DNA of 64,000 nt from Sinomonas mesophila. GTDB lineage: Bacteria > Actinomycetota > Actinomycetes > Actinomycetales > Micrococcaceae. The stretch covers positions 190,585-254,584 of the forward strand of contig NZ_KV908323.1 in NCBI RefSeq assembly GCF_001999765.1. The letters run 5' to 3'. A program made the translations under genes and the position numbers. Position 1 is the first letter of the stretch; each line of letters opens with the position of its first letter. The notes under the pieces were generated by a model. The model was given only the letters and a program-made list of their open reading frames with translations, did not search any database and was not told the DNA's origin. This document shows positions 21,230 to 53,571 of this stretch, piece by piece.

Positions 21230-21257
21230 TTGACGCTCGTCATGTGAATGATATCGT
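21230..21257 (+). promoter_or_regulatory. kyn operon promoter with TTGACGctCGTCAT operator
   Basis: A -35 box TTGACG (21230-21235), a 16-base spacer and a -10-like TATCGT (21252-21257) place the transcript start within a few bases of the kynA ATG at 21265, so the mRNA may be leaderless. The palindrome TTGACGctCGTCAT (21230-21243) covers the -35 box, a repressor-like position shared with three other operons in this window. Confidence 0.6.
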
Positions 21258-21264
21258 TGGGGGC

Positions 21265-22131
21265 ATGACCCAGACGGCATCCCCGCAGGCCGGCGTCCGA
21301 GCGATCGAAGAGGGCGTCCGCACCGACTTCCGCGGCGCCATGTCGTACGGCCGCTACCTCGACCTCGACGCGATCCTCCACGCCCAGCATCCGCAGAGCA
21401 GCCCGGAGCACCACGACGAGCTGCTCTTCATCGTCCAGCACCAGACGAGCGAGCTCTGGCTCAAGCTCGTCCTCCACGAGCTGCTCGAGGCCCGACGGCT
21501 CCTGGACGCCAACGACCTCGGCAAGGCCCTCAAGTGCCTCGCCCGCGTCAAGGCCATCCAGCGCACCCTCACGGAGCAGTGGTCCGTCCTCGGCACGCTC
21601 ACGCCCCGGGAGTACGCGCAGTTCCGCGGCGCGCTCGGCAGCTCCTCGGGCTTCCAGTCGTATCAGTACCGCGCGATCGAGTTCGTGCTCGGCAACAAGC
21701 ACTCCCGGATGCTCGAGGTGTTCTCGAGCGAGCCCGAGGCCCACGCCCTCCTCGCTGCGATCCTCGGCGAGCCCACCGTCTACGATGCGTTCCTGCGCCT
21801 TGTGGCCCGCGCCGGCTATGCCGTCCCCGAGGACATCCTGACCCGGGACGTGACCCAGCCGTGGACCTTCCGCGAGGACCTCGTCCCCGTCTTCCAGCGC
21901 ATCTACGAGGAGGACGAGACGCCGTGGGGCCTCTACGAGGCGTGCGAGGACCTCGTGGACCTCGAGGACAACTTCCAGGCCTGGCGCTTCCGCCACCTGC
22001 GCACGGTCCAGCGGACCATCGGCTTCAAGCGCGGCACGGGCGGCTCCTCAGGGGTCGACTTCCTCAAGCGCGCCCTCGATCTGACCTTCTTCCCCGAGCT
22101 CTACGCCGTCCGCACGGCGATCGGCTCCTGA
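21265..22131 (+). CDS. kynA: tryptophan 2,3-dioxygenase
   Basis: The protein has 288 residues with the heme-dioxygenase motifs DELLFIVQHQTSELWLKL (read as FIVQHQTSELW), SSGFQSYQYRAIEF and WRFRHLRTVQRTIGFKRGTGGS, in short stretches, including the distal His and the heme-ligand His. It opens the indole ring of L-tryptophan to N-formylkynurenine. The ATG at 21265 is preferred over a GTG at 21244 that lies within the promoter. It leads an operon with kynU, a PaaX-like regulator and a kynB-like hydrolase. Confidence 0.96.
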   Translation: MTQTASPQAGVRAIEEGVRTDFRGAMSYGRYLDLDAILHAQHPQSSPEHHDELLFIVQHQTSELWLKLVLHELLEARRLLDANDLGKALKCLARVKAIQRTLTEQWSVLGTLTPREYAQFRGALGSSSGFQSYQYRAIEFVLGNKHSRMLEVFSSEPEAHALLAAILGEPTVYDAFLRLVARAGYAVPEDILTRDVTQPWTFREDLVPVFQRIYEEDETPWGLYEACEDLVDLEDNFQAWRFRHLRTVQRTIGFKRGTGGSSGVDFLKRALDLTFFPELYAVRTAIGS

Positions 22132-22146: not shown

Positions 22147-23412
22147 ATGACGCAGCAAGTGGCTCTTGACACCGCGGCCCTCGACGCCGCGGCCCTCGAT
22201 GCCGCCGATCCGCTCGCGAGCTTCCGCGACCGCTTCCTGATGCCGGACGCCGCCCACGGCGGCCCCGTCGTCGCGTACCTCGACGGCAACTCTCTGGGCC
22301 GGCCGCTTGCCGTGACGGCCGAGCGGCTCGCCGAGTTCACCGCTGGCCCGTGGGGCAACCGCCTCATCCGCGCGTGGGACGAGCAGTGGATGGCCGAGCC
22401 GGTGCGCCTCGGGGACCGCCTCGGCGAGATCGTGCTCGGCGCGGGATTGGGGCAGACCGTCGTCGCGGACTCGACGTCGGTCATGATCTACAAGCTCGTC
22501 CGCGGGGCCCTCGACGCCCAGATGGCGCAGGATCCCGCCCGGAACGAGATCGTGATCGACCGCGAGAACTTCCCCACGGACCGCTTCCTTGTCGAGGGCA
22601 TCGCCGCCGAGCGCGGCGCATCCATCCGCTGGATCGAGCCCGACCCGGACGCGGGGGTGCGCCCCGCCGACGTCGAAGCCGCGCTCTCGCCGCGCACCTC
22701 CGTCGTCCTCCTAAGCCACGTTGCCTACCGCTCCGGGTTCATGGCCGACGCCGCCGCGATCACGGACGCCGTGCATCGCGCCGGCGCGCTCGTCGTCTGG
22801 GACCTCTGCCACTCGGCCGGGTCGGTGCCGGTCGAGCTCGATGCGTGGGGCGCGGACCTCGCCGTCGGCTGCACCTACAAGTACCTCAACGGCGGCCCCG
22901 GCTCGCCCGCGTTCGGCTACGTGCGGCGCGAGCTGCAGGACCGGCTGGCCCAGCCGATCTGGGGCTGGATGGGCGCCGCCGACCCGTTCGGCATGACCGA
23001 GTCCTACACGCCGGCGGCCGGGATCCGCCGGTTCATCACGGGCACCCCGCCGATCCTCGCGATGCAGCCGCTCAAGGCCATGGTCGAGCTCATCGCCGAG
23101 GCGGGGATGGACGCCGTCCGGGCCAAGTCGATCCGGCTCACCGAGTTCGCCGCGGCGCTGAGCGACGAGCTCCTGGCCCCGCTCGGCGTCGAGCTCGCGA
23201 GCCCGCGCGACCCGGCCGAGCGCGGGTCGCACTTCACGCTCAACCACCCGCGCTTCCGCGAGGCCACGGCGGTGCTGTGGGAGCGGGGGGTCATCCCGGA
23301 CTTCCGGCCGCCCCACGGGCTGCGCGTCGGGCTTTCGCCGCTGAGCACCTCGTTCGCCGAGGTGCGGGCAGGGATCGAGGCGGTCCGGGACGCGCTCATC
23401 GAACTGGCATGA
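22147..23412 (+). CDS. kynU: kynureninase
   Basis: The protein has 421 residues and the PLP aminotransferase-like fold. Visible motifs are YLDGNSLGRP, RENFPTDRF, DLCHSAGSVPVEL (PLP Asp) and GCTYKYLNGGPGSP with the Schiff-base Lys. It cleaves kynurenine to anthranilate and alanine. The N-terminus holds a short Ala/Leu/Asp repeat. A 15-base gap with GAGGA follows kynA. The stop overlaps the ATG of the PaaX-like gene. Confidence 0.96.
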   Translation: MTQQVALDTAALDAAALDAADPLASFRDRFLMPDAAHGGPVVAYLDGNSLGRPLAVTAERLAEFTAGPWGNRLIRAWDEQWMAEPVRLGDRLGEIVLGAGLGQTVVADSTSVMIYKLVRGALDAQMAQDPARNEIVIDRENFPTDRFLVEGIAAERGASIRWIEPDPDAGVRPADVEAALSPRTSVVLLSHVAYRSGFMADAAAITDAVHRAGALVVWDLCHSAGSVPVELDAWGADLAVGCTYKYLNGGPGSPAFGYVRRELQDRLAQPIWGWMGAADPFGMTESYTPAAGIRRFITGTPPILAMQPLKAMVELIAEAGMDAVRAKSIRLTEFAAALSDELLAPLGVELASPRDPAERGSHFTLNHPRFREATAVLWERGVIPDFRPPHGLRVGLSPLSTSFAEVRAGIEAVRDALIELA

Positions 23413-24422
23413 TCGGCCGAACTCTCGTGACAGGCCACGCGCGCGAGGCCGGGGGAGTCGCCGGCCAGACGACCCGGTCGCCCGGCGGCGTCGGACCGGT
23501 GGACGTCGCGCATGCGCCGACGGATATCGTCCAGGCCCTGCCCCGCGTCGCCGACGACATGGTCTCGCGGCCCGGCAGCGCGGTCTCGCTCCTGCGCACC
23601 GTCGTGGGCGTGTACCTGCGCGAGGCCGGCGGCTGGATGCCCACCGGCGCGTTCCTGGCCCTTCTCGGCGCGCTCGGCGTCCCCGTCCCGCAGGCGCGCA
23701 CGGCGCTGAGCCGGGTCAAGCAGCGCGGCCTCCTCCAGGCGGAGGCGCACGACGGCGTCGCCGGGCTCGCCCTTGCCCCAGGCGCCGGGGCGATGCTCGC
23801 CTGCGGGGACCGCCGCATCCACGAGCCGCGCAGCATGGCGGCCGACGGCGAGTGGTGCCTCATCGTGTTCTCCATCCCGGAGGCGATGCGCGACGCCCGG
23901 CACCAACTGCGGAAGCAGCTCACGTGGATCGGCTGCGGGACGGTCGAGGCCGGCGTATGGATCTGCCCCGACTTCCTGCGCGGAGAGGTCGAGGACGTCG
24001 TCGCCGGGCTCGGGCTGTCCGGGCACGTCGTGCTGTTCACGGCCCGCGGCCTGCCCGCGGGGCCCGTCGCCGCGGGGCAGGTGGGCCAATGGTGGGACCT
24101 CGAGGGGATCGCGCACCTGCACAGGGCGTTCCTCGAGGGACAGTCCGGGGTGCCGGAGGGCAGCGCGGGCGCGGCCGAGAGCTTCGCGGCCTACGTCGGC
24201 TGCATCGATGCGTGGCGCGTCATCCCGTACCTCGACCCTGGGCTCCCCGCCGAGCTCCTCCCCGACGACTGGCCCGGTCCCGAGTGCATCGCCCTGTTCC
24301 GCCGCATCCGCGAGGCCCACGCCGGGCCAGCGCGGGACTTCGTGCTCGGCACTCTGGCTTCGGGCGGGGTGCCCGCGGGTCTCGACCCGGCCCGTCTCGG
24401 CCACTCCGAGGAGGTCCGGTGA
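23409..24422 (+). CDS. PaaX-family transcriptional regulator within the kyn operon
   Basis: The protein has 337 residues. After an extension of about 50 residues it has the PaaX winged helix (SLLRTVVGVYLREAGG, ARTALSRVKQRGLL), the central PaaX domain (WCLIVFSIPEAMRDARHQLR) and the C-terminal domain ending WRVIPYLDPGLPAELLP, given as short stretches. PaaX represses phenylacetate genes and is released by phenylacetyl-CoA. Here it is coupled by ATGA to kynU and by GTGA to the hydrolase, so it is a candidate regulator of the kyn operon, possibly sensing an aryl-CoA such as 2-aminobenzoyl-CoA. Confidence 0.88.
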   Translation: MIGRTLVTGHAREAGGVAGQTTRSPGGVGPVDVAHAPTDIVQALPRVADDMVSRPGSAVSLLRTVVGVYLREAGGWMPTGAFLALLGALGVPVPQARTALSRVKQRGLLQAEAHDGVAGLALAPGAGAMLACGDRRIHEPRSMAADGEWCLIVFSIPEAMRDARHQLRKQLTWIGCGTVEAGVWICPDFLRGEVEDVVAGLGLSGHVVLFTARGLPAGPVAAGQVGQWWDLEGIAHLHRAFLEGQSGVPEGSAGAAESFAAYVGCIDAWRVIPYLDPGLPAELLPDDWPGPECIALFRRIREAHAGPARDFVLGTLASGGVPAGLDPARLGHSEEVR

Positions 24423-25195
24423 CCAGCCAGCCACCCGCCGTCGTGCGTCCCCGCGCGCAGGATCCGGCCGTCCTGCGCTACGGTGACCACCCCGACCAGT
24501 GGGTCGAGCTCTGGGACCAGGGCGGGAACGCCGGGAAGGGTCCCGCGCGGGGGCTCGTCCTCCTGGTCCATGGCGGGTACTGGCAGGCGCCCTACACGCT
24601 CGACCTCATGCGCCCGATGGCGGCCGACCTCGCGGCGCGCGGCTGGGCCGTGGCCAACATCGAGTACCGGCGCGACGCCGAGGGCCGCTGGCCGGTGCCC
24701 GAGGAGGACGTCCGGGCGGCCATCGCCGCCGTGCTCGGGAGCGCGTGGGCAGGCCGCCACGCCGGCCCGCGCGTGTCCCTCGGGCACTCCGTGGGCGGGC
24801 AGCTCGCGCTCCTGACCGCGGAGGCGGTCGACGCCGTCGTCGCCCTGGCGCCCGTGACCGACGTGCCGCGGGTATGGCGCGAGGGCCTCGGCCAGGACGC
24901 GGCGCGGCGGTACTTCGGCGCGTCGCCGGAGGAGGCGCCGGGCGCGTATGCTGCGGCGTCCCCGCTTGCGCGGCTGCCGTTGGGGCGGCCCGCGCTCGTC
25001 GTCCAGGGCGACGCCGACGATCGGGTCCCGCTCGGCCACTCCCTCGCGTACGCGGCGGCCGCCGAGGTCGCGGGCGACGCCGTGCTGCTCGAGGTGCACG
25101 CGGGCGCGGACCACTTCGTCGTCATCGATCCTGCGTGGGAGGGGTGGGGCGATGTCGTCGAGTGGATGGCCCGGGTCGAGGCCGAGCGGGGCTGA
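24419..25195 (+). CDS. alpha/beta-hydrolase, probable kynurenine formamidase
   Basis: The protein has 258 residues from a GTG overlapping the PaaX-like stop. It has the esterase-type fold with the oxyanion motif LLVHGGYWQ, nucleophile Ser in SLGHSVGGQLAL, Asp in VQGDADDRVP and His in AGADHFVVI. HGGYWQ is typical of arylformamidases that deformylate N-formylkynurenine. The operon otherwise lacks a formamidase, so this is the natural candidate. It differs from the metal-dependent KynB fold; a PF04199 protein of that fold is encoded at 43680-44459. Confidence 0.8.
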   Translation: MTSQPPAVVRPRAQDPAVLRYGDHPDQWVELWDQGGNAGKGPARGLVLLVHGGYWQAPYTLDLMRPMAADLAARGWAVANIEYRRDAEGRWPVPEEDVRAAIAAVLGSAWAGRHAGPRVSLGHSVGGQLALLTAEAVDAVVALAPVTDVPRVWREGLGQDAARRYFGASPEEAPGAYAAASPLARLPLGRPALVVQGDADDRVPLGHSLAYAAAAEVAGDAVLLEVHAGADHFVVIDPAWEGWGDVVEWMARVEAERG

Positions 25196-26387: not shown

Positions 26388-27257
26388 ATGTCCACCGTCG
26401 CCGCAGCGGATTCCAAGGCAGCGGCCGCCTCGCCGCGGCACCAGCAGCTCATCGTCACGGTCTTCGGGCTCTATGCCCGCGAGCACGGCGGGGCCCTCCC
26501 CGTGGCCGGGCTCGTGCGGCTGCTCGGCGAGCTCGGGGTCGAGGGCGCGGGCGTCCGCTCGGCCGTGTCGCGCCTCAAGAAGCGCGGCGTGCTCGAGAGC
26601 GTGAAGCTGGGCAGCGCCGCGGCATACCGGCTGGGTCCGGGCCTCGAGGAGGTCTTCTCCGAGGGCGACGAGCGCATCTTCTCGCCCCGCCGCGCCCGCC
26701 CCGAGGACCCGTGGCTGCTCGCCGCCTTCTCCGTCCCGGAGTCCCAGCGCGCCCTGCGCCACCAGATCCGCGCCTCGCTGACGCGGCTCGGCTTCGGCGC
26801 CGTATCGCCTGGGCTCTGGATCGCCCCCGTGGTGCTCGAGAAGGAGGCCCGGCGCCGCCTCGCGCGGGCCGGCGCCGGGCAGTACGTGGAGTTCTTCCGC
26901 GCCGAGTACGCGGACGACGGCGAGGGGCCAGGGATGCGTGAGCGCGTCGCCGAGTGGTGGGACCTGGACGCGCTCGAGGCGACGTACGTCGACTTCGTGG
27001 AGGGCCAGCGCGAGGTGCGCGAGCGCTGGGAGGGCGCGGCCGCGCCGTCGTCCGCGTCCGAGGACGCCGCGGCGTTCGCCGACTACGTCTCCCTCCTCAC
27101 CCAATGGCGGCGCCTGCCGTACCTCGACCCGGGGCTGCCGGCCGAGTACCTGCCGCCGACCTGGCACGGGATCGTGGCGCAGGAGCTCTTCGCCGCCCTG
27201 CGGGCCAAGCTCGAGGGGCCGGCGCGGCGACACGCGGAGGCCGCGCTGGCGGGGTAG
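26388..27257 (+). CDS. PaaX-family transcriptional regulator
   Basis: The protein has 289 residues with the same three-part PaaX architecture as the gene at 23409: winged helix (LIVTVFGLYAREHGG, VRSAVSRLKKRGVLES), central domain (WLLAAFSVPESQRALRHQIR) and C-terminal WRRLPYLDPGLPAEYLPP. No catabolic operon is directly adjacent. TAGGCT at 26375-26380 lies 7 bases before the ATG, which suggests a leaderless transcript. It is probably a paralogue with a different effector. Confidence 0.88.
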   Translation: MSTVAAADSKAAAASPRHQQLIVTVFGLYAREHGGALPVAGLVRLLGELGVEGAGVRSAVSRLKKRGVLESVKLGSAAAYRLGPGLEEVFSEGDERIFSPRRARPEDPWLLAAFSVPESQRALRHQIRASLTRLGFGAVSPGLWIAPVVLEKEARRRLARAGAGQYVEFFRAEYADDGEGPGMRERVAEWWDLDALEATYVDFVEGQREVRERWEGAAAPSSASEDAAAFADYVSLLTQWRRLPYLDPGLPAEYLPPTWHGIVAQELFAALRAKLEGPARRHAEAALAG

Positions 27258-30056: not shown

Positions 30057-30064
30057 CTGGGCGC

Positions 30065-31855: not shown

Positions 31856-32278
31856 CTACTCCGCCGTCCCCGACCCGATCACGGCGACGCCCTTGATCTC
31901 GATCAGGGCCTCATCCTGCCACAGCCGCGTGATCCCGATGCCGGCCATCGCGGGGTACTCGCGCCCGGCCATCTCGCGCCAGATCCGGCCGATCTCGCGG
32001 CCGTTGGCCATGTAGTCCTCCACGTCGGTGAGGTAGATGGTGACGTCGACGAGGTCCTCGGGCTTCCCGCCGGCCTCCTCGAGCGTGGCCAGGACGTTGG
32101 AGAACGCCTGCCGGAACTGCTCGACGATCCCGCCCGGGACGATCTTCATGTCCTTGTCCAGGGCGGTCTGCCCGCCCAGGTACACCGTGCTGCCCACCTT
32201 GATCCCGTGCGCGTAGCCGGACGGCTTCGGCAGCGACTCCGGGTTGATGGTCTCCTTGCGCGTCATGGTCGCCTCCAT
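31856..32278 (-). CDS. RidA/YjgF-family protein
   Basis: The protein has 140 residues with the family pattern: SGYAHGIKVGSTVYLGGQTA, ASNVLATLEEAGG-like helix, VDVTIYLTDVEDYMA and the Arg motif AGIGITRLWQDEALIEI, in short stretches. RidA proteins hydrolyse reactive enamines and imines; members near catabolic genes often act on 2-aminomuconate-type or other imine intermediates. It is divergent from the FAH-to-ACMR-like operon with which it shares an intergenic operator, so a role in imine hydrolysis during anthranilate breakdown is plausible. GGAGGACACC precedes the ATG. Confidence 0.88.
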   Translation of the reverse strand: MEATMTRKETINPESLPKPSGYAHGIKVGSTVYLGGQTALDKDMKIVPGGIVEQFRQAFSNVLATLEEAGGKPEDLVDVTIYLTDVEDYMANGREIGRIWREMAGREYPAMAGIGITRLWQDEALIEIKGVAVIGSGTAE

Positions 32279-32359: not shown

Positions 32360-32387
32360 TTGACGGTCGTTAGAAAAGCGACATACT
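32360..32387 (+). promoter_or_regulatory. promoter of the 2-aminobenzoyl-CoA-type operon with TTGACGgtCGTTAG operator
   Basis: A -35 TTGACG (32360-32365), a 16-base spacer and a -10 CATACT (32382-32387) precede the ATG at 32422, which has AGGAGA upstream. The palindrome TTGACGgtCGTTAG covers the -35 box in the same geometry as at the kyn promoter. The divergent RidA gene may share it. Confidence 0.65.
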
Positions 32388-32421: not shown

Positions 32422-33267
32422 ATGGAACTCGGCACGATCAGGACCGCGGAGGGCACCTCCGCCGCCGTTCGGCGCGACGACCGGTGGATGCCCCTCGGCG
32501 CCCCGGACCTCAGCGCGCTCCTCGCCCGGGCGGACTGGCGGACGACGGCGGAGGCCGCCCTCGCGTCCGCCGCACCGGGCGCCGGGGTCGCCGGGCACGA
32601 CGCCGAGCTGGCCCTCCCGCTGCCGGCGCCCCGCAAGGTCGTCTGCTGCGGGCTCAACTACGCCGACCACATCCTCGAGATGGGCCGGGACCTCCCCGAG
32701 CACCCCACGCTCTTCGCGAAGTTCGCGGACACGCTCACGGGCCCCACGGACGAGGTCGCGGTGCCGCCCGCAGCGCAGGCCGCGCTGGACTGGGAGGCCG
32801 AGCTCGCCGTCGTCGTCGGCGCGGAGCTGCGCGGCGCGACCGAGGAGGAAGCGCGAGCCGGCATCGCCGGGTACACGCTCGCGAACGACCTCTCGGTCCG
32901 CGACTGGCAGAAGCGCACCCTCCAGTGGTTCCAGGGCAAGGCGTGGGACGCGACCACGCCCGTGGGCCCGGTCCTCGTCACGGCCGACGCGATCGACCCC
33001 GAGGACGGCATCGAGATCGTGTGCGAGGTCAACGGCGTCCGCCGCCAGACGGGCTCGACCAAGACGATCGTCTTCAGCGCCGCCGCCCTCGTCGCCTACA
33101 TCTCCCAGTTCACCGTGCTGCGCCCCGGCGACGTGATCCTCACGGGCACGCCGGGCGGCGTCGGCATGGGGATGCAGCCCCCGCTCTACCTCGCCGACGG
33201 CGACACCGTCGTCGTCCAGGCCGCGGGCCTGGGCCGCCTCGAGAACACCATCCGCTTCACCCACTGA
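32422..33267 (+). CDS. fumarylacetoacetate hydrolase (FAH)-family protein
   Basis: The protein has 281 residues. The C-terminal FAH domain shows GLNYADHILEMG, the metal Glu residues in LDWEAELAVVVG, the Asp in LANDLSVRDWQ and PGDVILTGTPGGVGMG. FAH proteins hydrolyse or decarboxylate 2,4-dioxo acids such as fumarylpyruvate. As first gene of the operon with a CoA ligase and an ACMR-like enzyme it probably acts late in the aromatic breakdown route, but the exact substrate is unknown. Confidence 0.9.
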   Translation: MELGTIRTAEGTSAAVRRDDRWMPLGAPDLSALLARADWRTTAEAALASAAPGAGVAGHDAELALPLPAPRKVVCCGLNYADHILEMGRDLPEHPTLFAKFADTLTGPTDEVAVPPAAQAALDWEAELAVVVGAELRGATEEEARAGIAGYTLANDLSVRDWQKRTLQWFQGKAWDATTPVGPVLVTADAIDPEDGIEIVCEVNGVRRQTGSTKTIVFSAAALVAYISQFTVLRPGDVILTGTPGGVGMGMQPPLYLADGDTVVVQAAGLGRLENTIRFTH

Positions 33268-33302
33268 TCAGCAGACACTAGAGACAAGGCAAAGGAGCCA
33301 CC

Positions 33303-33806
33303 ATGCCCGAGCAGACAGCAGAGCAGACTGCAGAGCAGATCGTGTACCGGACCGAGGGTGACAACTCCCTCTACGCGCAGCCCGACGGCCGCGTCATCCC
33401 CGTCGTGACCCGCGCCGGCCAGGAGGACACCTCGACGACGCAGTCGGGACAGTGCGTCCGCGTCTCGGGCGTCTCGATCCAGCACACCCCGGCGACCAAG
33501 ATCTGGTTCGGCCAGGTCTCCAACGAGCCCGGCTACCGCTCCTTCCCGCACCACCACGGCGAGGCCGAGACCGGCGGCTACGTGCTCCGCGGCCACGGCC
33601 GGATCTACTTCGGCGAGGGCTACAAGGAGTACGTCGACATGAGCGCCGGCGACTGGGTCTTCGTCCCGCCGTTCATGCCGCACGTCGAGGCGAACATGTC
33701 CGTCACCGAGGAGCTCGTGTGGCTCACTACCCGCACCCCGGAGAACATCGTGGTGAACCTCGAGGACGTCGACGACTCCGAGCTCGAAGGGTTCCGCCGG
33801 GCATGA
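33303..33806 (+). CDS. cupin-domain protein
   Basis: The protein has 167 residues and one beta-barrel cupin with metal ligands visible in SFPHHHGEAETGGYVLRGHG (HxH and Glu) and in PPFMPHVEAN (His). The N-terminus has a short Glu-Gln-Thr repeat. Small cupins in aromatic operons include dioxygenases and binding proteins; this one is shorter than gentisate dioxygenase and differs from 3-hydroxyanthranilate dioxygenase, so the reaction is unassigned. It is coupled by ATGA to the thioesterase gene. Confidence 0.82.
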   Translation: MPEQTAEQTAEQIVYRTEGDNSLYAQPDGRVIPVVTRAGQEDTSTTQSGQCVRVSGVSIQHTPATKIWFGQVSNEPGYRSFPHHHGEAETGGYVLRGHGRIYFGEGYKEYVDMSAGDWVFVPPFMPHVEANMSVTEELVWLTTRTPENIVVNLEDVDDSELEGFRRA

Positions 33807-34795: not shown

Positions 34796-34856
34796 CGTCC
34801 CGGCTGCCAGGCCCCCCGTCCCCAGAGCCCTCCGCACTGCCCGAAAGGTGACCCCC

Positions 34857-36515: not shown

Positions 36516-36526
36516 GAGGACATCCA

Positions 36527-39052: not shown

Positions 39053-39087
39053 CTCATCCACACCAGCCGCCCACCCCAGGAGGATCC

Positions 39088-39537: not shown

Positions 39538-39556
39538 CCGCGCCCGGACGTCCGCA

Positions 39557-39626: not shown

Positions 39627-39793
39627 TGGGTCGATGGGGAGAGGCCTCCTCCGCGCCGAGTCCTCCTCGACCTCGACACCCGTCTGGGCTCGAGGTGCGT
39701 ACCCGGAAGGGCGAAACCCCGTCGAGATCCGTACCCGATACGGATTGCGCGGGCGGGGTTCCGGATCCCCTGGGGGAGGGCTAGCCTCGTAGG

Positions 39794-41955: not shown

Positions 41956-43683
41956 TCAGTGCCCCTTGAACGCCTCGTGCAGCCACCAGGCTCCGCCGTC
42001 GGAGGCGACCTTCGCGTCGAGCACCAAGGGCCGCTCGGGCCGGCCATTTGTGCCCGAGGCAAGCCACGCCTCCACGACGTCGAGGTCCGCGAGGGTGCGC
42101 ACCGTCGCGGCCTCGCAGCCCACGCCGCGGCCGATCGACGCGATGTCCGTCTCCGGGAACGTCACCGTGGACACGTCCGTGCCTGGATGGTCGGCGGCGA
42201 AGTGGTGCACCTCGGCCCCATACGCGGCGTCGTTGTACACGACGCACACGAGCGGCAGCTTCAGCCGCACGGCGGTCTCGAGCTCCGCGAGGCCCATGAG
42301 GAACCCGCCGTCCCCCGCGCCGAGGACCGGGAGGCGGCCCGGCTGGGCCACGGCCGCCCCGATCGCCGTCGCGAGCCCGAGCCCGATGGACTGGAAGGCC
42401 TGCGTGAAGCAGAAGCCGAACTCGTCTGGGACGTCGAGGTACTGGCTCGGGTAGCCCATGAAGTTGCCCGAGTCGACCGAGATGATCCGCTCCGCGGGCA
42501 GCAGCACGTCGAGCCGCCGCGTGAGCTCCCGCGGGTCGATCCGGTCGAGGCCGTCCGCCCCGGGGCCGGAGAGGTCCTCGGTCTCGACGTCCTGCCAGCG
42601 CGACGACGCCGCGATGCGCTCGCGGACCTCCTCGGTCCGGTAGCCGGTCCGCGGCGCGGCGCCGGAGAGCGCCTCGAGCACGGAGGCCGCCGTCGCCCCG
42701 GAGTCCCCGACGACGCCGAGCGTCACCGGACGGTGCGCGCCGAGCGCTCCATGGTCGAGGTCCACCTGCACGACGGCGGTGCCCTCGCCGATGAGGTTCC
42801 CGTGCCGCATGGTCCACATGTTCAGCGCGCAGCCGAACGCGACGATGAGGTCCGCGCCGGAGATGAGCTCCGCCGTCGTGGGCGAGGAGAACCCGCCCGA
42901 GATGCCGAGGCCGAACGGCTCGCCCGCGAAGAGGCCCTTCGCGACGGCGGACGTCGCGACGAGCGCGCCCGCGTGCTCCGCGAGGGCGAGGATCTCCTTG
43001 CGCGAGCCCCGCCCGCCGCGGCCCGCGACGAAGACCGGGCGCTTCGCCTGCGCGAGCAGCTCGGCGAACGCCCGGACGCTCTCCTCGGCCGGGCGCACCG
43101 GCGCGGGCGGCGGCACGCGCAGGGGCGAGCCGGCGGACGACGGCGCGTGGCCGGCGTCGTGCGCGGGCTGGGCCTGCACGTCGAGCGGGAGGTTCAGGAC
43201 GACGGTGCGGCGGCCCTCGAGCGCAGTGCGGAAGGCGCGGACCGTGTCCGCGACGGCCGACGCGGCGGAGTGCACGCGCTCGGGCACGGCGCCGACGGAG
43301 CGCGCGAGCGCGGCCTGGTCCATCGCGAAGTTCGAGTGCACCGACGCCCCGGCCGTCTCCGCGGCGAGGACGATGAGCGGGGTCCGGGACTTCGCCGCCT
43401 CGCCGATGCCGGTGGCCGCGTTCGTGAGGCCGCAGCCCTGGTGGACCGACAGGAGGCCGACCTTCCCCGACATGCGTGCGTAGGCGTCGGCCATGGTCGC
43501 GGCGCCGCCCTCGTGGCGGGCGGCCGTATACGGGACGCCGCGCGCGACGAGCGCGTTCGTCACGGCGAAGTTGCCGGACCCGACCACGCCGAAGCAGTGC
43601 CCGGCGCCGAGCTCGGCGAGGGTCTGGGCGACGACGTCCGCGACGTTCAGGGCCGCCGTCGGCTGCGTGGACGCCGCGCTCAT
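41956..43683 (-). CDS. thiamine diphosphate-dependent enzyme, candidate isatinate/aryl-glyoxylate decarboxylase
   Basis: The protein has 575 residues with the three-domain ThDP fold: N-terminal GSGNFAVTNAL and the catalytic-type Glu in RHEGGAATMADAYARM, a central domain with AGRGGRGSRKE, and the C-terminal ThDP site GAGDGGFLMGLAE...VVYNDAAYG. It is coupled by ATGA to a PF04199 hydrolase gene. Isatinate is an aminobenzoylformate, so a benzoylformate-decarboxylase-type reaction next to an isatin hydrolase-like enzyme is chemically reasonable. Other 2-oxo acid decarboxylases or acetolactate synthase-like roles remain possible. Confidence 0.85.
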   Translation of the reverse strand: MSAASTQPTAALNVADVVAQTLAELGAGHCFGVVGSGNFAVTNALVARGVPYTAARHEGGAATMADAYARMSGKVGLLSVHQGCGLTNAATGIGEAAKSRTPLIVLAAETAGASVHSNFAMDQAALARSVGAVPERVHSAASAVADTVRAFRTALEGRRTVVLNLPLDVQAQPAHDAGHAPSSAGSPLRVPPPAPVRPAEESVRAFAELLAQAKRPVFVAGRGGRGSRKEILALAEHAGALVATSAVAKGLFAGEPFGLGISGGFSSPTTAELISGADLIVAFGCALNMWTMRHGNLIGEGTAVVQVDLDHGALGAHRPVTLGVVGDSGATAASVLEALSGAAPRTGYRTEEVRERIAASSRWQDVETEDLSGPGADGLDRIDPRELTRRLDVLLPAERIISVDSGNFMGYPSQYLDVPDEFGFCFTQAFQSIGLGLATAIGAAVAQPGRLPVLGAGDGGFLMGLAELETAVRLKLPLVCVVYNDAAYGAEVHHFAADHPGTDVSTVTFPETDIASIGRGVGCEAATVRTLADLDVVEAWLASGTNGRPERPLVLDAKVASDGGAWWLHEAFKGH

Positions 43684-44459
43684 GCGGCACCGCCCTCGGT
43701 GATGGCGAGGACGCGGGCCGGCGAGCCCGTGCCGCCCACGATGGGCAGGGGCGCGACGACGACGAGGGCGCCGGTCGGCGGGAGCTCGCCGAGGTTCTGG
43801 AGCGAGGTGATGCCGTACTTGTCGTGCCCGAGGAGGAAGTGGTGCATCGGGAACGGCGGCTCCATGCCGCCGGCCGCGCCGGCGTCGATCCCGACCGTCT
43901 CGACGCCCACGCCCGAGAGCGGGCTGGACTCCGCGATCCACTGCGCGCAGCGGGCGGTGAAGCCGGGGGAGTGCGGGCCGTTCTCGTCGGCGTTGAGGAA
44001 GCGCTCGCGGTCCTGGGCGTAGGCGTCCCAGCCCGTGCGGACGAGGAGCCAGCCATTCGCGGGCAGCGGGCCGTGCTCCGCCTGCCACTTTTCGAGGTGC
44101 TCGACGTCCACGAGGAAGTCCGGGTCCTCGGCGACCTGCGCCGAGACGTCCAGGACGCAGGCGGGGCCGACGAGGCGGGGCGGCTCGATCTGGGAGACGT
44201 CCTTGCCGTCCTTGCCGGTGGCCCAATGGACCGGGGCGTCGAGGTGGGTGCCGATGTGCTCGCCGGTGGAGATGTTGTGGTGCTTCCAGAACGGCCCGGG
44301 CTTGTTGTAGGCCGAGACCTCCTCGAGGCTGAAGTCCACGAGGTTGGCGAACGGCTCGGGGAGCCGGAGGGTGGGCGTCTCGGAGGAGAGCCGGTTCGTC
44401 AGGTCGACGACGCGAGTGGTCCCTGCGGCGAGGGACTCGATGAGGGATGCCAGTGGCAT
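43680..44459 (-). CDS. PF04199 cyclase/amidohydrolase, candidate isatin hydrolase
   Basis: The protein has 259 residues from the ATG at 44459 with GAAGGAG upstream; an earlier start at 44492 lacks a site. The metal-binding signature HIGTHLDAPVH (residues 68-78) is that of the family that includes metal-dependent kynurenine formamidase and isatin hydrolase. Since the kyn operon already has an alpha/beta-fold formamidase candidate, and the gene is coupled to a ThDP enzyme gene, opening of isatin to isatinate is proposed. A TGACGttCGTCA palindrome overlaps its promoter. Confidence 0.85.
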   Translation of the reverse strand: MPLASLIESLAAGTTRVVDLTNRLSSETPTLRLPEPFANLVDFSLEEVSAYNKPGPFWKHHNISTGEHIGTHLDAPVHWATGKDGKDVSQIEPPRLVGPACVLDVSAQVAEDPDFLVDVEHLEKWQAEHGPLPANGWLLVRTGWDAYAQDRERFLNADENGPHSPGFTARCAQWIAESSPLSGVGVETVGIDAGAAGGMEPPFPMHHFLLGHDKYGITSLQNLGELPPTGALVVVAPLPIVGGTGSPARVLAITEGGAA

Positions 44460-44489: not shown

Positions 44490-44517
44490 CATAGGCCGAT
44501 CTTGTGACGTTCGTCAG
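44490..44517 (-). promoter_or_regulatory. promoter of the hydrolase/ThDP operon with CTGACGaaCGTCAC operator
   Basis: On the minus strand a -35-like CTGACG (44517-44512) is followed after 16-17 bases by CTATGC-like sequence as -10. The palindrome TGACGttCGTCA (44505-44516) covers the -35 region in the same arrangement as at the kyn, FAH and AAHS promoters. Confidence 0.55.
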
Positions 44518-46576: not shown

Positions 46577-47614
46577 TCACCGCCGCAGCGTCGCCGACGG
46601 GGCCTCCCCGAACATCGCTTGGTAGGCCTGGGAGAAGCGCCCCAGATGCCCGAACCCGCAGGCACCCGCCACCGCCGTGACGCTCTGTTCGCCCGGCTCG
46701 CAGTCCTGGAGCATCTGCCGGGCGCGCAGCAGCCGTGACGTCCGGAGCATGGCCGTCGGCGTCGACCCAGTCTCGGCCGAGACGGCCGCCTGGAGGGTGC
46801 GCAGCGGCACGCCCATGGCCTCGGCCAGCTCCGAAACCATGACGTCCTCTGACGCATGCCGTTCCAGCAGCTCATTGAAGCGCCGGACCAGCCGCGCCGT
46901 CGCCGCGTTGGCGGTTCCGGCCTGAGCGGATGCAGCGTCCTTTCCTGGCTCCCACTGGCCGAGCGAGAGGGAGACGTTGCTCGGCACGGCGAGCAGCCAG
47001 CGCTGCAGCACAGCTTCCTCGAGGAGCTTCAGCGCGTAGGGGGCGACCGCCGGATCTGTGCCGTTGACGGCGTCGTGGAATTCGAAGGCGGCCCGCAGGA
47101 GCGCCTGCCCGGCCGGACTCTTGAGGTCCAGCGAATGGCCGAGGCGCAGTCCGCCGGTCAGCTCGGCGCCGAACAGGCCCCTCGCGGCGTCTTCCATGGC
47201 CGAGAGCGGGGCGTACAGGATCAGCTGGGGAGTCCCGGCCTGCCACTCCATCGAGAAGTCCCGGTCGATCGGGGGGAGGGTCGCGAGCCGCGCGTCGGAC
47301 GCGATTCTCTCGTTCCCGCACTCCATCGTCGCCCGGCCCTGGAGCGGCATCTGGACGAGGAAGAACGATTCGAGGGCCTGCGGGCTGATGCGGACATCGG
47401 CGCCGTAGTCGAGCAGGTGCACCCCGAGGTTGGCGGTCGTGGCCGATCGGAGCTTGAGGTCCACGTGGCCGCCAGCGTCCAGCGGCACCAGGCGGTGGGC
47501 GCAGAACAGCTCCTCGATGGTCTGCTGCGCCTCATCGGCGTCGACGATGGCGAGCGTGGCCCGCCGGTCGAGCACTTGGTCCGGGCGGGGCAACCGGAGC
47601 GTGGGGGAAAGCAT
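46577..47614 (-). CDS. AraC-family transcriptional regulator of the SDR/StyA cluster
   Basis: The protein has 345 residues from the ATG at 47614 with TTGGAGG upstream. The N-terminal two-thirds is an AraC-binding-like ligand domain, and the C-terminus (about 240-345) holds the double helix-turn-helix with VSELAEAMGVPLRTLQAAV and VTAVAGACGFGHLGRFSQAY. It is divergent from the SDR gene, with a direct-repeat operator in between. In Acinetobacter iif indole clusters an AraC-type regulator activates in response to indole; the same role is inferred here. Confidence 0.88.
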   Translation of the reverse strand: MLSPTLRLPRPDQVLDRRATLAIVDADEAQQTIEELFCAHRLVPLDAGGHVDLKLRSATTANLGVHLLDYGADVRISPQALESFFLVQMPLQGRATMECGNERIASDARLATLPPIDRDFSMEWQAGTPQLILYAPLSAMEDAARGLFGAELTGGLRLGHSLDLKSPAGQALLRAAFEFHDAVNGTDPAVAPYALKLLEEAVLQRWLLAVPSNVSLSLGQWEPGKDAASAQAGTANAATARLVRRFNELLERHASEDVMVSELAEAMGVPLRTLQAAVSAETGSTPTAMLRTSRLLRARQMLQDCEPGEQSVTAVAGACGFGHLGRFSQAYQAMFGEAPSATLRR

Positions 47615-47638
47615 GTCGGCCTCCAAGCCAGACGCCAC

Positions 47639-47701
47639 TTGCGCGAATCGGACGAGCCCTGCGCGGTTCGGATAGAAGGCCAAACGCCGCGCACGTAGCG
47701 T
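47639..47701 (+). promoter_or_regulatory. AraC-type operator and promoter of the SDR/StyA operon
   Basis: Direct repeats TTGCGCGAATCGGA (47639) and CTGCGCGGTTCGGATAG (47659) are spaced 20 bp, followed by -10 TAGCGT at 47696-47701, 36 bases from the proximal repeat. The proximal repeat reaches the -35 region, as expected for AraC-type activation. The arrangement matches 31689-31751. Confidence 0.75.
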
Positions 47702-47748
47702 CGTGACTGGCCCCAGTATGGCACAGGTCACAGGCAAGGAAGGCTGAG

Positions 47749-48564
47749 ATGGGAACTCTGGACGGGCGCGTAGCCCTCGTGACAGGCGGCTCGACTCTCG
47801 TGGGCCGGGGCGTCGTCGACGCCCTGGCCGCAGAGGGTTCGCGGGTCGTGATTGCGGACATCGATGCGGTGGGCGGCGCCGAGGCCGCGCTCCATCCGTC
47901 GGTGGACTTCCGCCTCACGGACATCACGGACGACGGCGCTCTTGCGGCTCTCGTTGATGCCCTGCGGCGGGACTACGGTCGCCTCGACATCCTCGTGAAC
48001 CTCGCCTGCTCGTATCTGGACAACGGTGTGGACTCGGATCGGCCGGACTGGCTGAGCTCGCTCAATGTCAACGTGGTCAGCGCGGTCATGATGGCTCGGG
48101 CGGTCCGGGACCTCCTGGCCGAGTCGGGCCACGGCTCGATCATTAACTTCACCTCGATCTCGAGCTCCGTGGCGCAGACCGGCCGCTGGCTCTACCCCGC
48201 GAGCAAGGCGGCGCTCGTCCAGATCACGCGCAGCATGGCGGCCGACTTCGCCGCCGAGGGCATCCGGGTCAACTCCGTGAGCCCCGGTTGGACGTGGTCC
48301 AAGGTCATGGAGACCCTCAGCGGCGGCGACGCCGCCCACGTCGACGCCGTCGCGGCCCCGTTCCACCTCCTCGGCCGGGTCGGCCGCCCGAGCGAGGTCG
48401 GCGCCGTCGTCGCCTTCCTGGCCTCCGACGCCGCGTCCTTCGTGACCGGGGCCGACTGGGCCGCCGACGGTGGATACTCCGCCCTCGGCCCCGAACGCAA
48501 CGAACCCGCCATCCCCCTGCTCGCAAAGGATCCGGCGCTCAGCGCGCCGGCCGAAGGGAGGTGA
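47749..48564 (+). CDS. short-chain dehydrogenase, IifA-like
   Basis: The protein has 271 residues with the classical SDR motifs TGGSTLVGRG, NLACSY in place of NNAG, catalytic Ser in TSISSS and YPASK, and the C-terminal NSVSPGWTWSKV. Leading an operon with StyA-type monooxygenases and divergent from an AraC gene, it occupies the place of IifA, which oxidises the indole dihydrodiol-type intermediate. The NAD-loop Asn-Leu-Ala-Cys is unusual. The end of the protein is duplicated in the next small gene. Confidence 0.85.
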   Translation: MGTLDGRVALVTGGSTLVGRGVVDALAAEGSRVVIADIDAVGGAEAALHPSVDFRLTDITDDGALAALVDALRRDYGRLDILVNLACSYLDNGVDSDRPDWLSSLNVNVVSAVMMARAVRDLLAESGHGSIINFTSISSSVAQTGRWLYPASKAALVQITRSMAADFAAEGIRVNSVSPGWTWSKVMETLSGGDAAHVDAVAAPFHLLGRVGRPSEVGAVVAFLASDAASFVTGADWAADGGYSALGPERNEPAIPLLAKDPALSAPAEGR

Positions 48565-48569
48565 ACCCC

Positions 48570-48773
48570 ATGAGGTCCCGTCGTCTCGCACGCCAGCACT
48601 GGGTGGACTACCGCGAGCGCAACGCCGCCACCGCCGTCCGGGGGCTGCACTCGCCCGGCACGCGGGAGGCCGTCGTCGTCATCACCTCGGCCTCAGAGGC
48701 CGGTTACGTTGGCACAGCCCCCGGTTGGGCCGTCGAAGACGGCCACTCTGCCTTCGGCCCCGAATGCCACTAG
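48570..48773 (+). CDS. 67-residue chimera of RRLAxQ motif and degenerate SDR tail
   Basis: The N-terminus RSRRLARQHWVDYRERNAA matches the 43-residue protein at 31507-31638. The C-terminus, with AVVVITSASEAGYVG and GWAVEDGHSAFGPE, aligns with the end of the preceding SDR, with AVVAFLASDAASFVTG and DWAADGGYSALGPE. The gene thus seems to be the small motif protein fused to a duplicated, decayed SDR end. GGGAGGTGAACCCC is a strong ribosome binding site, and the gene lies 5 bases after the SDR stop. Confidence 0.7.
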   Translation: MRSRRLARQHWVDYRERNAATAVRGLHSPGTREAVVVITSASEAGYVGTAPGWAVEDGHSAFGPECH

Positions 48774-48814
48774 ACACCGACCAGACTCCAACCCACAGAC
48801 CACGAGGAATCCCC

Positions 48815-50062
48815 ATGGCACAACGCTCCATCACCATCGTCGGCGCCGGCCAGTCCGGCCTCCAGCTCGGAGTCGGCCTTCTTGAGGCCGGCTACCAGGT
48901 GCGCATCGTCTCCAACCGCACGGGGGAGGAGATCGCCGCCGGCCGGGTCTCGTCCAGCCAGTGCATGTTCGGGCAGGCCCTCGCCCATGAGTCGGACCTC
49001 GGCCTCGACCTGTGGCAGGACGCCCCCGCCGTCGACGGCATCGGCTTCACCGTGGCACCCTCGGAGGCCCCCGGGGTCAAGGCCATCGACTGGGCCCACC
49101 GCCTCGACCGCCCGGCCCAGTCCATCGACCAGCGGGTCAAGTTCCCCGCCTTCATGGAGGCCTTCGTCCAACGCGGCGGAGAGCTCGTGTTCGAGGACGC
49201 CGGCGTCGACGAGCTCGAGCGCTACGCCGCCGAGAGCGATCTCGTGCTCGTCGCCGCGGGCAAGGGCGAGATCGCTCGGCTGTTCGAGCGCGACGCCGAG
49301 CGGAGCCACTACGACGCCCCGCAGCGCGCCCTCGCCCTCACCTACGTCCACGGCATGCGCCCCCGGGACGAATACTCCGCCGTCGCCTTCAACCTCATCC
49401 CCGGCGTCGGCGAGTACTTCACCTTCCCCGCGCTCACCCTCTCGGGCCCCTGCGACATCATGGTCTTCGAGGGCCTCCCGGGCGGGCCGATGGACGCGTG
49501 GGCGGGCCTGTCCCCCGAGCAGCACCTTGGGCGCTCTCTCGAAATTCTTCGGACGTACCTGCCCTGGGAGGCAGAGCGCTGCTCCGACGTGAGCCTCACC
49601 GACGAGCTCGGCGTCCTCCAGGGCCGCTTTGCCCCCACCGTGCGCCGCCCCGTCGTCACGCTCCCCTCGGGCCGGACGGTCCTGGGGATGGCGGACGTCG
49701 TCGTCCTCAACGACCCGATCACGGGACAGGGCTCGAACAACGCCGCCAAGTGCGCGGCCTCGTACCTCGAGTCGATCGTCGCCCACGGGGACCTCCCCTT
49801 CACCCGCGACTTTCAGCAGGCCACGTTCGAGCGGTACTGGGGCTACGCCCAGTTCGTCGCGGGCTGGACGAACGCGCTGCTCGCGCCTCCGCCAGAGCAC
49901 GTCCTCAACCTCCTCGGCGCGGCCGGCTCGTCCCCGGCGATCGCCAAGCGCTTCGTGAACGGCTTCGACTTCCCGCCGGACTTCTTCGAGTGGTTCATGG
50001 ATCCCGACTCCGCGGCGCGGTATCTGGACAGCCTTGCCAGCGCCGCTCAGCCCTCGGCCTGA
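48815..50062 (+). CDS. styrene/indole monooxygenase, StyA1-type flavoprotein
   Basis: The protein has 415 residues. It has a two-component (group E) flavin monooxygenase fold: FAD motif IVGAGQSGLQLGVGLL, SSSQCMFGQALAHE, RLDRPAQSIDQRVKFPAFM, GVGEYFTFPALTLSGPCDIM and DPITGQGSNNAAKC, in short stretches. StyA enzymes epoxidise styrene or the C2-C3 bond of indole using reduced FAD. It needs a reductase, which is fused to the next gene product. The cluster context favours indole. Confidence 0.9.
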   Translation: MAQRSITIVGAGQSGLQLGVGLLEAGYQVRIVSNRTGEEIAAGRVSSSQCMFGQALAHESDLGLDLWQDAPAVDGIGFTVAPSEAPGVKAIDWAHRLDRPAQSIDQRVKFPAFMEAFVQRGGELVFEDAGVDELERYAAESDLVLVAAGKGEIARLFERDAERSHYDAPQRALALTYVHGMRPRDEYSAVAFNLIPGVGEYFTFPALTLSGPCDIMVFEGLPGGPMDAWAGLSPEQHLGRSLEILRTYLPWEAERCSDVSLTDELGVLQGRFAPTVRRPVVTLPSGRTVLGMADVVVLNDPITGQGSNNAAKCAASYLESIVAHGDLPFTRDFQQATFERYWGYAQFVAGWTNALLAPPPEHVLNLLGAAGSSPAIAKRFVNGFDFPPDFFEWFMDPDSAARYLDSLASAAQPSA

Positions 50063-51840: not shown

Positions 51841-53546
51841 CGGGCGCGAAAGATTCCGCGGCGAGTGATTACGTCGTCGTCGGCGGCGGGATCAACGCGA
51901 TGGTCGCCGCCGCCCGGCTCGCCGGGGCCGGCTTCTCCGTGACCCTCGTCGAGGAGAGGGACCGCCTCGGCGGGTTCATCGACTCCGGCGAGCTCACCGT
52001 GCCCGGCTTCGTCCACGACACCTTCTCCTCGTGGCACCCGCTGTTCGTGGCCAGTCCGGCGTTCGCGGAGCTCGGCCCCGAGCTCGCCGAGTGCGGCCTC
52101 ACCTACCGCAACACCGAGGATGCCGGGCTCGACGCCGTGACGGCCAGCGTGGATGCGGCCCCCGGCGGCGGGGAGCGGGCGGCCATCGCCTACCGGGACC
52201 CGGAGCGCACGGCGGCCGCGTTCGAGCACGCCGAGGACGCTGCGGCGTACGCGCGCATGCTCGAGGAGCTCGGCGAGCGCTCCGGCCTTGTGTTCGGCGC
52301 GCTCGGGACCGAGCTCCGCTCGTGGAAGGCGCTCAGGCTCGGCCTCTCGGCGCTCCGCCCCGGCCTGCGGGCCGCGGAGCGGCTCGCGCGGGACAGCCTC
52401 ATGAGCGGGCGCAACCTCACGCGGCTGCGGTTCAGGGGCTGGGAGGCGGACCAGCTCTGGGCGCCCTGGCTCCTGCACGCCGGGCTCGGGCCCGACCACG
52501 CGACCGGCGGCGTCATGCTGCCGCTCATGGCGCTCACGATGCACGGCGTCGGCCTGCCCGTCGTGGAGGGTGGGGCCGGGCGCTTCGTGGAGGCCTTCGC
52601 CCGGCTCCTCGCCCGGCGCGGCGTCCGGGTGGAGCTCGGGCTCCCGGTGGAGCGCATCGCCGTCCGGGGCGGACGCGCCGTCGCCGCGGAGACCGCCGTC
52701 GAGCGCTTCGAGGCGCGGCGCGGCGTCCTGGCCTCCACCTCCCCGCAGGCGCTCTACACCGCCCTCCTCCCGGAGGCCGCCGTCCCGGGACAGATGCGCG
52801 GCCAGGCCGCGGCCTACCGGCCCGGGCGGGCGGCGATGCAGATCCACGTCGCCCTCGACTCCCCGCCGGCCTGGACCGATTCCCGGCTGGCTTCCGTGCC
52901 GCTCGTGCACCTCTCGGACGGCTCGGGGAGCACCGGCGTCGCGTGCGCGCAGGCGGAGGCGGGCCTGCTGCCCGCCCGGCCGACCGTCGTCGTCGGCCAA
53001 CAGTGTCTCCTGGACCCCTCCCGGGCCCCGGAGGGCAAGGCAACGCTGTGGCTCCAGCTGCAGGAGCTCCCGTTCCGACCCGCGGGCGACGCGGCCGGGG
53101 AGCTGGACGTGAGCGACGGGTGGACGCCCGAGCTCGCGCGCGGGTTCGCGGAGCGGGTCCTGGCCCGGATCGAGGCCTTCGCGCCCGGGCTGCGCTCGTC
53201 CGTCCTCGGGATTAAGGTCATCTCGCCTGTGGACCTCCAGGCCGCGAATCGCAACGCCGTCGACGGCGACCCGTACGGCGGCTCAGCCGAGCTGTTCCAG
53301 AACCTCCTCTGGCGGCCGCTCCCCGCCGCGGCGCACCACCGGACGGCGGTCGAGGGGCTGTGGCACATCGGCGCGTCGACGCACCCCGGCCCGGGGCTCG
53401 GCGGGGGCTCGGGCTACCTCGTGGCCGGGCAGATTCTCGCGGGCGCGAGGCGACGGACCCGGCGTCGTCCGTCTTCCCCCGACGACGCCGGGCGCGCGGC
53501 GTCGTCGGGAACGGAAACCGCCGACCCATATGTGCTGAAACATTGA
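51837..53546 (+). CDS. phytoene desaturase-like FAD oxidoreductase
   Basis: The protein has 569 residues from a GTG overlapping the StyA2B stop. The FAD-binding motif VVVGGGINAMVAAARLAGAG and the C-terminal HIGASTHPGPGLGGGSGYLV define the COG1233/crtI-like group. No carotenoid genes are nearby. Being translationally coupled to the StyA2B gene, it probably oxidises an indole-derived intermediate, which is inference from position. A basic, Ser/Pro-rich tail follows the FAD domain. Confidence 0.85.
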   Translation: MTGAKDSAASDYVVVGGGINAMVAAARLAGAGFSVTLVEERDRLGGFIDSGELTVPGFVHDTFSSWHPLFVASPAFAELGPELAECGLTYRNTEDAGLDAVTASVDAAPGGGERAAIAYRDPERTAAAFEHAEDAAAYARMLEELGERSGLVFGALGTELRSWKALRLGLSALRPGLRAAERLARDSLMSGRNLTRLRFRGWEADQLWAPWLLHAGLGPDHATGGVMLPLMALTMHGVGLPVVEGGAGRFVEAFARLLARRGVRVELGLPVERIAVRGGRAVAAETAVERFEARRGVLASTSPQALYTALLPEAAVPGQMRGQAAAYRPGRAAMQIHVALDSPPAWTDSRLASVPLVHLSDGSGSTGVACAQAEAGLLPARPTVVVGQQCLLDPSRAPEGKATLWLQLQELPFRPAGDAAGELDVSDGWTPELARGFAERVLARIEAFAPGLRSSVLGIKVISPVDLQAANRNAVDGDPYGGSAELFQNLLWRPLPAAAHHRTAVEGLWHIGASTHPGPGLGGGSGYLVAGQILAGARRRTRRRPSSPDDAGRAASSGTETADPYVLKH

Positions 53547-53571
53547 CGACCGTCAAATAAACAAATATCGT
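53543..53571 (+). promoter_or_regulatory. AAHS transporter promoter with perfect TTGACGacCGTCAA operator
   Basis: TTGACG (53543-53548) as -35 and TATCGT (53566-53571) as -10, spacer 17, precede the transporter. The palindrome TTGACGacCGTCAA is exact and covers the -35 box. This is the best match among four sites and defines the consensus. It overlaps the last codons of the FAD oxidoreductase gene. Confidence 0.7.

Follow-up and report, generated by a model that had tools for sequence, protein, structure and literature searches.

A palindromic promoter site in the tryptophan and anthranilate catabolic region of Sinomonas mesophila as a putative operator of two PaaX-family paralogues

Which regulator reads a palindrome that recurs at four catabolic promoters of Sinomonas mesophila? 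This question is raised by a 64,000-nucleotide stretch of contig NZ_KV908323.1 (the window, in whose positions all coordinates are given), which we searched with the 14-bp palindrome TTGACGNNCGTCAA, whose shared core is TGACGNNCGTCA. The four sequences reported in a preliminary description of this DNA were all present, at the same positions and on the same strands:

Positions 21230–21243, plus strand: putative operator of the kynA promoter, TTGACGCTCGTCAT with core TGACGCTCGTCA; its left half is the -35 box, and the site is kept in relatives.
Positions 32360–32373, plus strand: putative ridA/FAH intergenic operator, TTGACGGTCGTTAG (pattern match, relatives).
Positions 44504–44517, minus strand: putative operator preceding the cyclase/ThDP operon, CTGACGAACGTCAC (pattern match, relatives).
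Positions 53543–53556, plus strand: putative operator preceding an AAHS-like transporter gene, TTGACGACCGTCAA (pattern match, relatives).

It is likely, in our judgement, that the palindrome is an operator of the PaaX family and that two paralogues, here called PaaX1 and PaaX2, read it at these promoters.

Apart from these four sites, nothing in the window matches TTGACGNNCGTCAA with two mismatches or fewer (the sites themselves have none at 53543, one at 21230, and two each at 32360 and 44504–44517). The distance from the outer edge of the site to the start codon is 35 bp for kynA (21265), 62 bp for FAH (32422), 58 bp for the cyclase gene (44459), and 76 bp for the AAHS-like gene (53619). By eye, the left half-site reads as a -35 hexamer at all four sites, as had been described, and a -10-like hexamer follows 16–18 bp on; it is TATCGT at kynA and AAHS and weaker at FAH and the cyclase gene. 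Dinucleotide shuffles of the window gave 1.55 matches with at most two mismatches on average and at least four in 4 of 60 cases, and permuted palindromes of equal composition gave at least four window matches in 10 of 80 cases. A claim of significance from the window count was given up after these controls. At up to three mismatches, 31 matches were found against 20.3 expected, the majority away from promoters.

The placement of the sites, unlike their number, exceeds chance. The exact core TGACGNNCGTCA occurs 17 times in the 4.0-Mb genome, and its reversed pattern twice. Fourteen of the 17 were flagged within predicted open reading frames (ORFs), three of which (L008, L009, L017) score weakly or have the core at their start; the remaining three cores mark the promoters of kynA, the cyclase gene, and the AAHS gene in the window. 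Exact cores are thus uncommon at other promoters of the genome. The FAH site does not count among the 17, as its core carries one mismatch, and a long ORF that overlaps the AAHS site and ends 2 bp into its core is taken as spurious. The earlier statement that identical placement at four unlinked promoters is unlikely by chance holds for placement and only marginally for number, and "unlinked" is a loose word for promoters that all lie within 33 kb. Whole-genome core counts in 148 relatives were uninformative, because the matches in the own genome are mostly coding.

An indication of the regulator comes from the kyn operon, which consists of four genes:

Positions 21265–22131, plus strand: kynA, tryptophan 2,3-dioxygenase (TIGR03036, 396.9 bits against a cut-off of 390.7, scanned from 21244).
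Positions 22147–23412, plus strand: kynU, kynureninase (TIGR01814, 248.2 bits against a cut-off of 246.4).
Positions 23409–24422, plus strand: PaaX1, a PaaX-family protein and presumed kyn-operon repressor (three PaaX Pfam domains; its structural model best matches E. coli PaaX).
Positions 24419–25195, plus strand: alpha/beta hydrolase (BD-FAE, Pfam), by its operon position a possible formylkynurenine formamidase.

A search for PaaX1 in 295 family genomes matched PaaX-family proteins in 100 of them at E 1e-20, those highest in the list being PaaX1; 57 genomes among the matches listed were taken as PaaX1 holders, and 55 were examined after the own genome and G346, which has no kynA, were set aside. 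Forty kyn loci were read first and 16 more later. Upstream of kynA, 39 of the 55 loci with operon-linked PaaX1 carry the core, 18 of them exactly and 21 with a single mismatch, as against 0 of 18 kynA loci that have no PaaX1 in the vicinity (Fisher p 4e-8, uncorrected for relatedness). The latter were hand-picked among the matches listed (175 kynA genomes), 10 being of a closer and 8 of a more distant type, and the comparison omits the window itself and 12 loci with a PaaX1 match and no kynA match. Ten of the 18 unlinked kynA genes are ~75–86% identical to that of the window, three of them from the same genus. Both kinds occur together in G320, where one kynA (L025) has PaaX1 and the site and another (L113) has neither. 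In a set of 80 loci from named genomes, the core was present at no more than one mismatch at 47 of 64 operon-linked kynA genes and at 6 of 7 with PaaX1 merely near; these sites extend to Microbacteriaceae (Leucobacter, Herbiconiux). The named set (L137–L216) overlaps in organisms with the loci above (L018–L057, L117–L132), so that the counts are not additive. In some loci, L051–L057 among them, kynA and PaaX1 were the only genes of the operon found. In one locus, L172, kynA is divergent from PaaX1 and preceded by two exact cores.

These data bear on two explanations that dispense with a PaaX protein. The palindrome might be no operator at all and consist of two -35 boxes set back to back, or show a chance likeness to promoters, given that TTGACG is a -35 consensus, that ridA and FAH are divergent, and that the site count is not significant. 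This is very unlikely, because both halves are kept at kynA promoters with PaaX1 and not at those without it, core letters past the hexamer and the outer arms described below are conserved, and exact cores precede catabolic genes on plasmid pAL1. Alternatively, a regulator of another family might bind the palindrome, such as the AraC protein (46577) or the LuxR protein (27360), both encoded in the region. AraC or LuxR matches were found in 0 of 40 kyn loci, and loci that lack PaaX1 also lack the site. Such a regulator is very improbable, with a small probability left for an unlinked one encoded elsewhere in the genomes.

The kyn sites have a further feature:

Positions 21220–21253, plus strand: putative nested kyn operator, TTTCA-N6-TGACG-NN-CGTCA-N6-TGATA (window sequence, relatives).

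In 36 kyn sites, two extra conserved arms, TTTCA and TGATA, lie one helical turn away from the core. In the window the outer arms are near mirror images, and the right arm runs into the -10 hexamer. The pattern TCA-N6-YGACG-N2-(any 5)-N6-TGATA fits 52 of 56 rows, the window included, and the Nocardia loci L211 and L215 have the outer arms ATGACA/TGTCAT at equal spacing. Since the start codon of kynA follows the -10-like TATCGT by 7 bases, and similarly in relatives, the kynA mRNA is probably leaderless, with its ATG at about the expected transcription start. We set aside a reading of the right arm as containing a TGATTC half-site of the E. coli kind, since this half-site coincides with the -10 region.

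The recognition helix of PaaX1 comprises residues 93–105 in the predicted structure (mean predicted local distance difference test score 87–93 there), and residue 97 within it covaries with the right half-site. In all 18 rows with Q97, the right half differs from CGTCA (CGCAA, CGTAA, GGTAA, CGCCA, and others) and the left GACG is retained. Among the rows with R97, the 33 that have a nested site read CGTC (30), CGTT (2), or AGTC (1) in the right half. One row has a gap at position 97.

We then consider the anthranilate side, to which PaaX2 appears to belong:

Positions 26388–27257, plus strand: PaaX2, which stands alone and is, of the two PaaX proteins in the window, the closer to those of pAL1 (Pfam, identity, linkage).
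Positions 31856–32278, minus strand: RidA-family protein, divergent from the FAH operon (Pfam; order kept in relatives).
Positions 32422–41203, plus strand: anthranilate lower-pathway genes (Pfam, NCBIfam; FAH-to-ACMR order as on pAL1).
Within these, plus strand: FAH from 32422, cupin from 33303, acyl-CoA thioesterase from 33803, and CoA ligase from 34857 (Pfam, NCBIfam).
Further within these, plus strand: ACMR from 36527, 4HBT protein from 38938, and MFS transporter from 39794 (Pfam, NCBIfam).

ACMR is a fusion of FAD-binding and Oxidored_FMN domains. NCBIfam assigns it above cut-off as salicylyl-CoA 5-hydroxylase/oxidoreductase, the same automatic name that its pAL1 orthologue bears. ACMR is present in 40 of 197 family genomes, and the order ridA (divergent), FAH, cupin, thioesterase, ligase, ACMR is widely conserved. 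A PaaX2-type gene lies inside the fetched stretch at 38 of 40 ACMR loci, the exceptions being L058, with PaaX2 elsewhere in the genome, and L092, an 8.3-kb contig. This linkage makes PaaX2 a candidate repressor of the ACMR operon. The ridA/FAH block has at most two mismatches in 14 bp at 26 of 39 loci and three at ten; one locus of this set is that of the window (L097), and L069 and L071 come from a single genome. Its flanks are TTGAG/CGACA, as against the kyn arms TTTCA/TGATA, and its left half is TTGACG in three loci of the genus and mostly GTGACG elsewhere.

Both proteins score above the cut-offs of all three PaaX Pfam models (N-terminal, central Cas2-like, C-terminal). Among solved PaaX structures, the PaaX1 model matches 8a39, of E. 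coli PaaX, best (E 1.7e-14; TM-scores 0.67/0.74) and 3l09 as well (E 1.6e-8). Neither protein reaches the PaaX equivalog TIGR02277 (109.8 bits for PaaX1 and 145.8 for PaaX2, cut-off 264.55), and the two pAL1 PaaX proteins likewise fall below it (151.9 and 148.7 bits). In a tree of 85 PaaX proteins, from which three short translations and two duplicates were omitted, PaaX1 (39 rows) stood apart from PaaX2-type proteins (46 rows) with support 100/100. The recognition helices are alike, RTALSRVK and RSAVSRLK. At E 1e-20, the window's genome contains only these two PaaX matches. A third PaaX paralogue was seen next to an alpha/beta hydrolase gene in relatives (L134 1282–2082; L064 1210–2016 and L095 3870–4667, both reverse complement), and in G002 (L059, L134) it adjoins the cyclase/ThDP operon.

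The distribution of the two proteins bears on the earlier proposal that the kyn-operon PaaX protein governs all four promoters. FAH, AAHS, or cyclase sites are seen where a genome has a PaaX2-type protein and no PaaX1 match (G150, G155, G212, G224, G065; the same applies to G060, though its second PaaX match is unclassified). Conversely, PaaX1 is the sole PaaX-family match (E 1e-20) in 26 of 43 PaaX1 genomes, all 26 without an orthologue of the CoA ligase; a kynA locus is present in 25 of these, and its core has no more than one mismatch in 19 and two mismatches in the other six, which all belong to the Q97 clade. Because FAH, AAHS, and cyclase sites exist without PaaX1 and kyn sites with PaaX1 only, the regulators are most likely two paralogues, and the idea of one repressor is not supported. 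A single repressor, PaaX1, with PaaX2 uninvolved would account simply for the same core at four promoters and for the position of PaaX1 within the kyn operon. It is an unlikely explanation, given the sites in the five genomes without PaaX1, the company that PaaX2 keeps with the ACMR operon, and FAH flanking arms unlike those of kyn. The candidacy of PaaX1 thus stands for the kyn site and falls for the four together, while the proposed regulon of tryptophan and anthranilate catabolic operons is supported by conservation of the sites upstream of orthologous kyn, FAH, cyclase, and AAHS genes.

The two remaining sites precede the following genes:

Positions 41956–43683, minus strand: ThDP-dependent enzyme (Pfam).
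Positions 43680–44459, minus strand: PF04199 cyclase-family hydrolase (Pfam).
Positions 53619–54947, plus strand: AAHS-like MFS transporter (Pfam; best model TIGR00895, aromatic acid/H+ symport, 286 bits, below the cut-off of 418.55).

At an identity of at least 55%, with one cyclase gene at a locus edge removed and without use of a score matrix, 9 of 12 cyclase and 8 of 19 AAHS genes are preceded by a core with no more than one mismatch. The AAHS misses are mostly explained by position, because the site is present at 0 of 10 AAHS genes located behind ACMR in the same orientation and at 8 of 9 that are placed separately. Four of the nine cyclase sites sit 175–209 bp upstream, towards a divergent 4HBT gene, which they may serve. 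Operon-internal genes serve as a control, since they showed no enrichment at score 8 (kynU 3/38, ACMR 1/43, thioesterase 0/41, cupin 1/41). The matrix used for these counts and for those upstream of PaaX2 was trained on kyn and FAH sites. The kyn matrix and the FAH matrix both favour good sites, because L030 (no kynA), L050, L056, and L057 were dropped from the kyn rows and L089, L092, and L094 from the FAH rows. Upstream of PaaX2 genes, matches were found in 6 of 48 against ~2 expected, a weak signal for autoregulation by the same motif.

The paralogues might be interchangeable, both binding all four sites so that kyn and ACMR genes answer both signals in genomes with both proteins; the core is shared, the recognition helices are similar, and the AAHS and cyclase sites of the window lack the kyn outer arms and cannot be assigned clearly to one type or the other. 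The consistent flank difference between kyn and FAH sites speaks against this, and we regard full interchangeability as rather doubtful. Partial cross-binding, which the flank difference permits, is compatible with a division of labour between PaaX1 and PaaX2 as well.

The earlier "isatin-type" label is unproven, since the cyclase scored 32 bits against an arylformamidase cut-off of 223; the ThDP enzyme passed no cut-off among the 25 NCBIfam models shown. The GntR protein named earlier as a possible regulator was not recovered, as no GntR model matched in the Pfam scan, which covered 40 ORFs at about 18.8–58 kb and not every ORF. Adjoining the cyclase/ThDP operon (46577–50062), an AraC regulator gene is divergent from genes for a styrene-monooxygenase-like protein (Smoa_sbd) and an SDR, and this group may be an indole-oxidation unit. 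In the relative L086, SMO, SDR, and AraC homologues lie close to the ACMR operon. A phage-type integrase gene (PF00589, 55624–56667) lies just past the AAHS-like gene.

The closest known counterpart is pAL1, a plasmid of Arthrobacter sp. Rue61a and, among plasmids, the one that PaaX2 matches best. It carries two PaaX genes, to whose products PaaX2 is 55% and 56% identical, the same FAH-cupin-thioesterase-ligase-ACMR operon with ridA divergent, and the same TGACGNNCGTCA core at its promoters. In 40.8 kb of pAL1, exact cores number three, and all of them fall within 200 bp of a start codon. One precedes a PaaX gene by 188 bp, another the FAD-monooxygenase/meqE group by ~140 bp, and the third the xanthine-dehydrogenase-type genes by ~135 bp, the last two being upper-pathway groups. 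One-mismatch cores lie at ridA/FAH and three other places. A second FAH-like block, TGACGATCGTAA with a TTGAG arm, occurs on pAL1 at position 21795 of L217 and is not before the FAH gene. A 2013 study in J Bacteriol reportedly found that MeqR2, a PaaX-type repressor, binds 5'-TGACGNNCGTcA-3' and responds to anthraniloyl-CoA; which of the two pAL1 PaaX proteins is MeqR2 is a matter of presumption on our part. PaaX2 resembles this system in its linkage to the 2-aminobenzoyl-CoA operon and, by sequence, in the TGACGNNCGTCA core at its target promoters, the MeqR2 motif itself being the reported one. PaaX1 departs from it: it is only 36–38% identical to the pAL1 proteins, its operator has nested outer arms, and it does not regularly accompany the 2-aminobenzoyl-CoA pathway, as 29 of 43 PaaX1 genomes have no anthranilate-CoA ligase orthologue (E 1e-100). 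The upper pathway differs as well, being quinaldine degradation on pAL1 and tryptophan (kyn) catabolism in the window.

E. coli PaaX shares its domains with PaaX1 and PaaX2 and its fold with the PaaX1 model, whereas the window proteins are far below the equivalog cut-off. In a review, E. coli PaaX is described as repressing its own synthesis, with phenylacetyl-CoA as inducer, and its operator, which differs from ours, as TGATTC-N27-GAATCA (PMC9493321). A limited literature search, which is no proof of absence, found nothing on a PaaX protein in kynurenine or anthranilate regulation. The type of site is already known; its use at the tryptophan operon by a repressor of that operon's own, and the nested operator, appear to be new.

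Several observations weigh against an operator of PaaX-family repressors. The number of sites in the window is not significant, only marginally above chance, and on pAL1 the cores with at most two mismatches are at chance level (28 against 24.2 expected). Sixteen of the 55 linked kyn loci have at least two core mismatches, and the Q97 clade accounts for 11 of these. Beyond the family, the cores of the Salinibacterium and Nocardia kyn loci all have two mismatches, and the Streptomyces locus L185 (kynA-kynU-PaaX1) has no core, its best match having four mismatches. Four R97 rows (L023, L024, L031, L050) fall outside the nested pattern, and the change from R97 to Q is supportive only, because one clade represents a single evolutionary event. 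Three ACMR loci have FAH sites of 4–5 mismatches only, and the FAH block could be two back-to-back -35 boxes, of ridA and FAH, which it resembles. The cyclase gene of the relative G002 has no good site (best, four mismatches), which speaks against a universal cyclase site.

With these points taken into account, a PaaX-family operator read by two paralogues remains our preferred explanation, and it suggests the following mechanism. TGACGNNCGTCA would be the operator of PaaX-family repressors. PaaX1 would repress the kyn operon, itself included, by occupying the -35 box, and the outer arms would let it extend to the -10 hexamer of the probably leaderless kynA promoter. PaaX2 would act likewise on the ridA/FAH-ACMR promoters, with those of the cyclase and AAHS genes as probable further targets. 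A pathway intermediate would relieve repression: for PaaX2 most likely anthraniloyl-CoA, by analogy to what is said of MeqR2, and for PaaX1 possibly another kynurenine-pathway compound.

Many PaaX1 genomes have no ligase orthologue, so that the inducer of PaaX1 may differ. Since PaaX1 is retained in these genomes and also with kynA alone, it is possible, and we put it forward tentatively, that PaaX1 represents a tryptophan-catabolism branch of the family past aryl-CoA sensing, with N-formylkynurenine, kynurenine, or free anthranilate as ligand and a 34-bp operator in which two inverted repeats are nested at a distance of one helical turn. A ligand other than anthraniloyl-CoA is a prediction, and a more distant ligase may supply the CoA ester.

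If this explanation holds, one type of operator and two sister repressors would tie the pathway from tryptophan to anthranilate to that from anthranilate to central metabolism. The joint presence or absence of repressor and site, and one helix change that goes with one half-site change, would make these loci a natural system for the study of PaaX specificity and ligand evolution.

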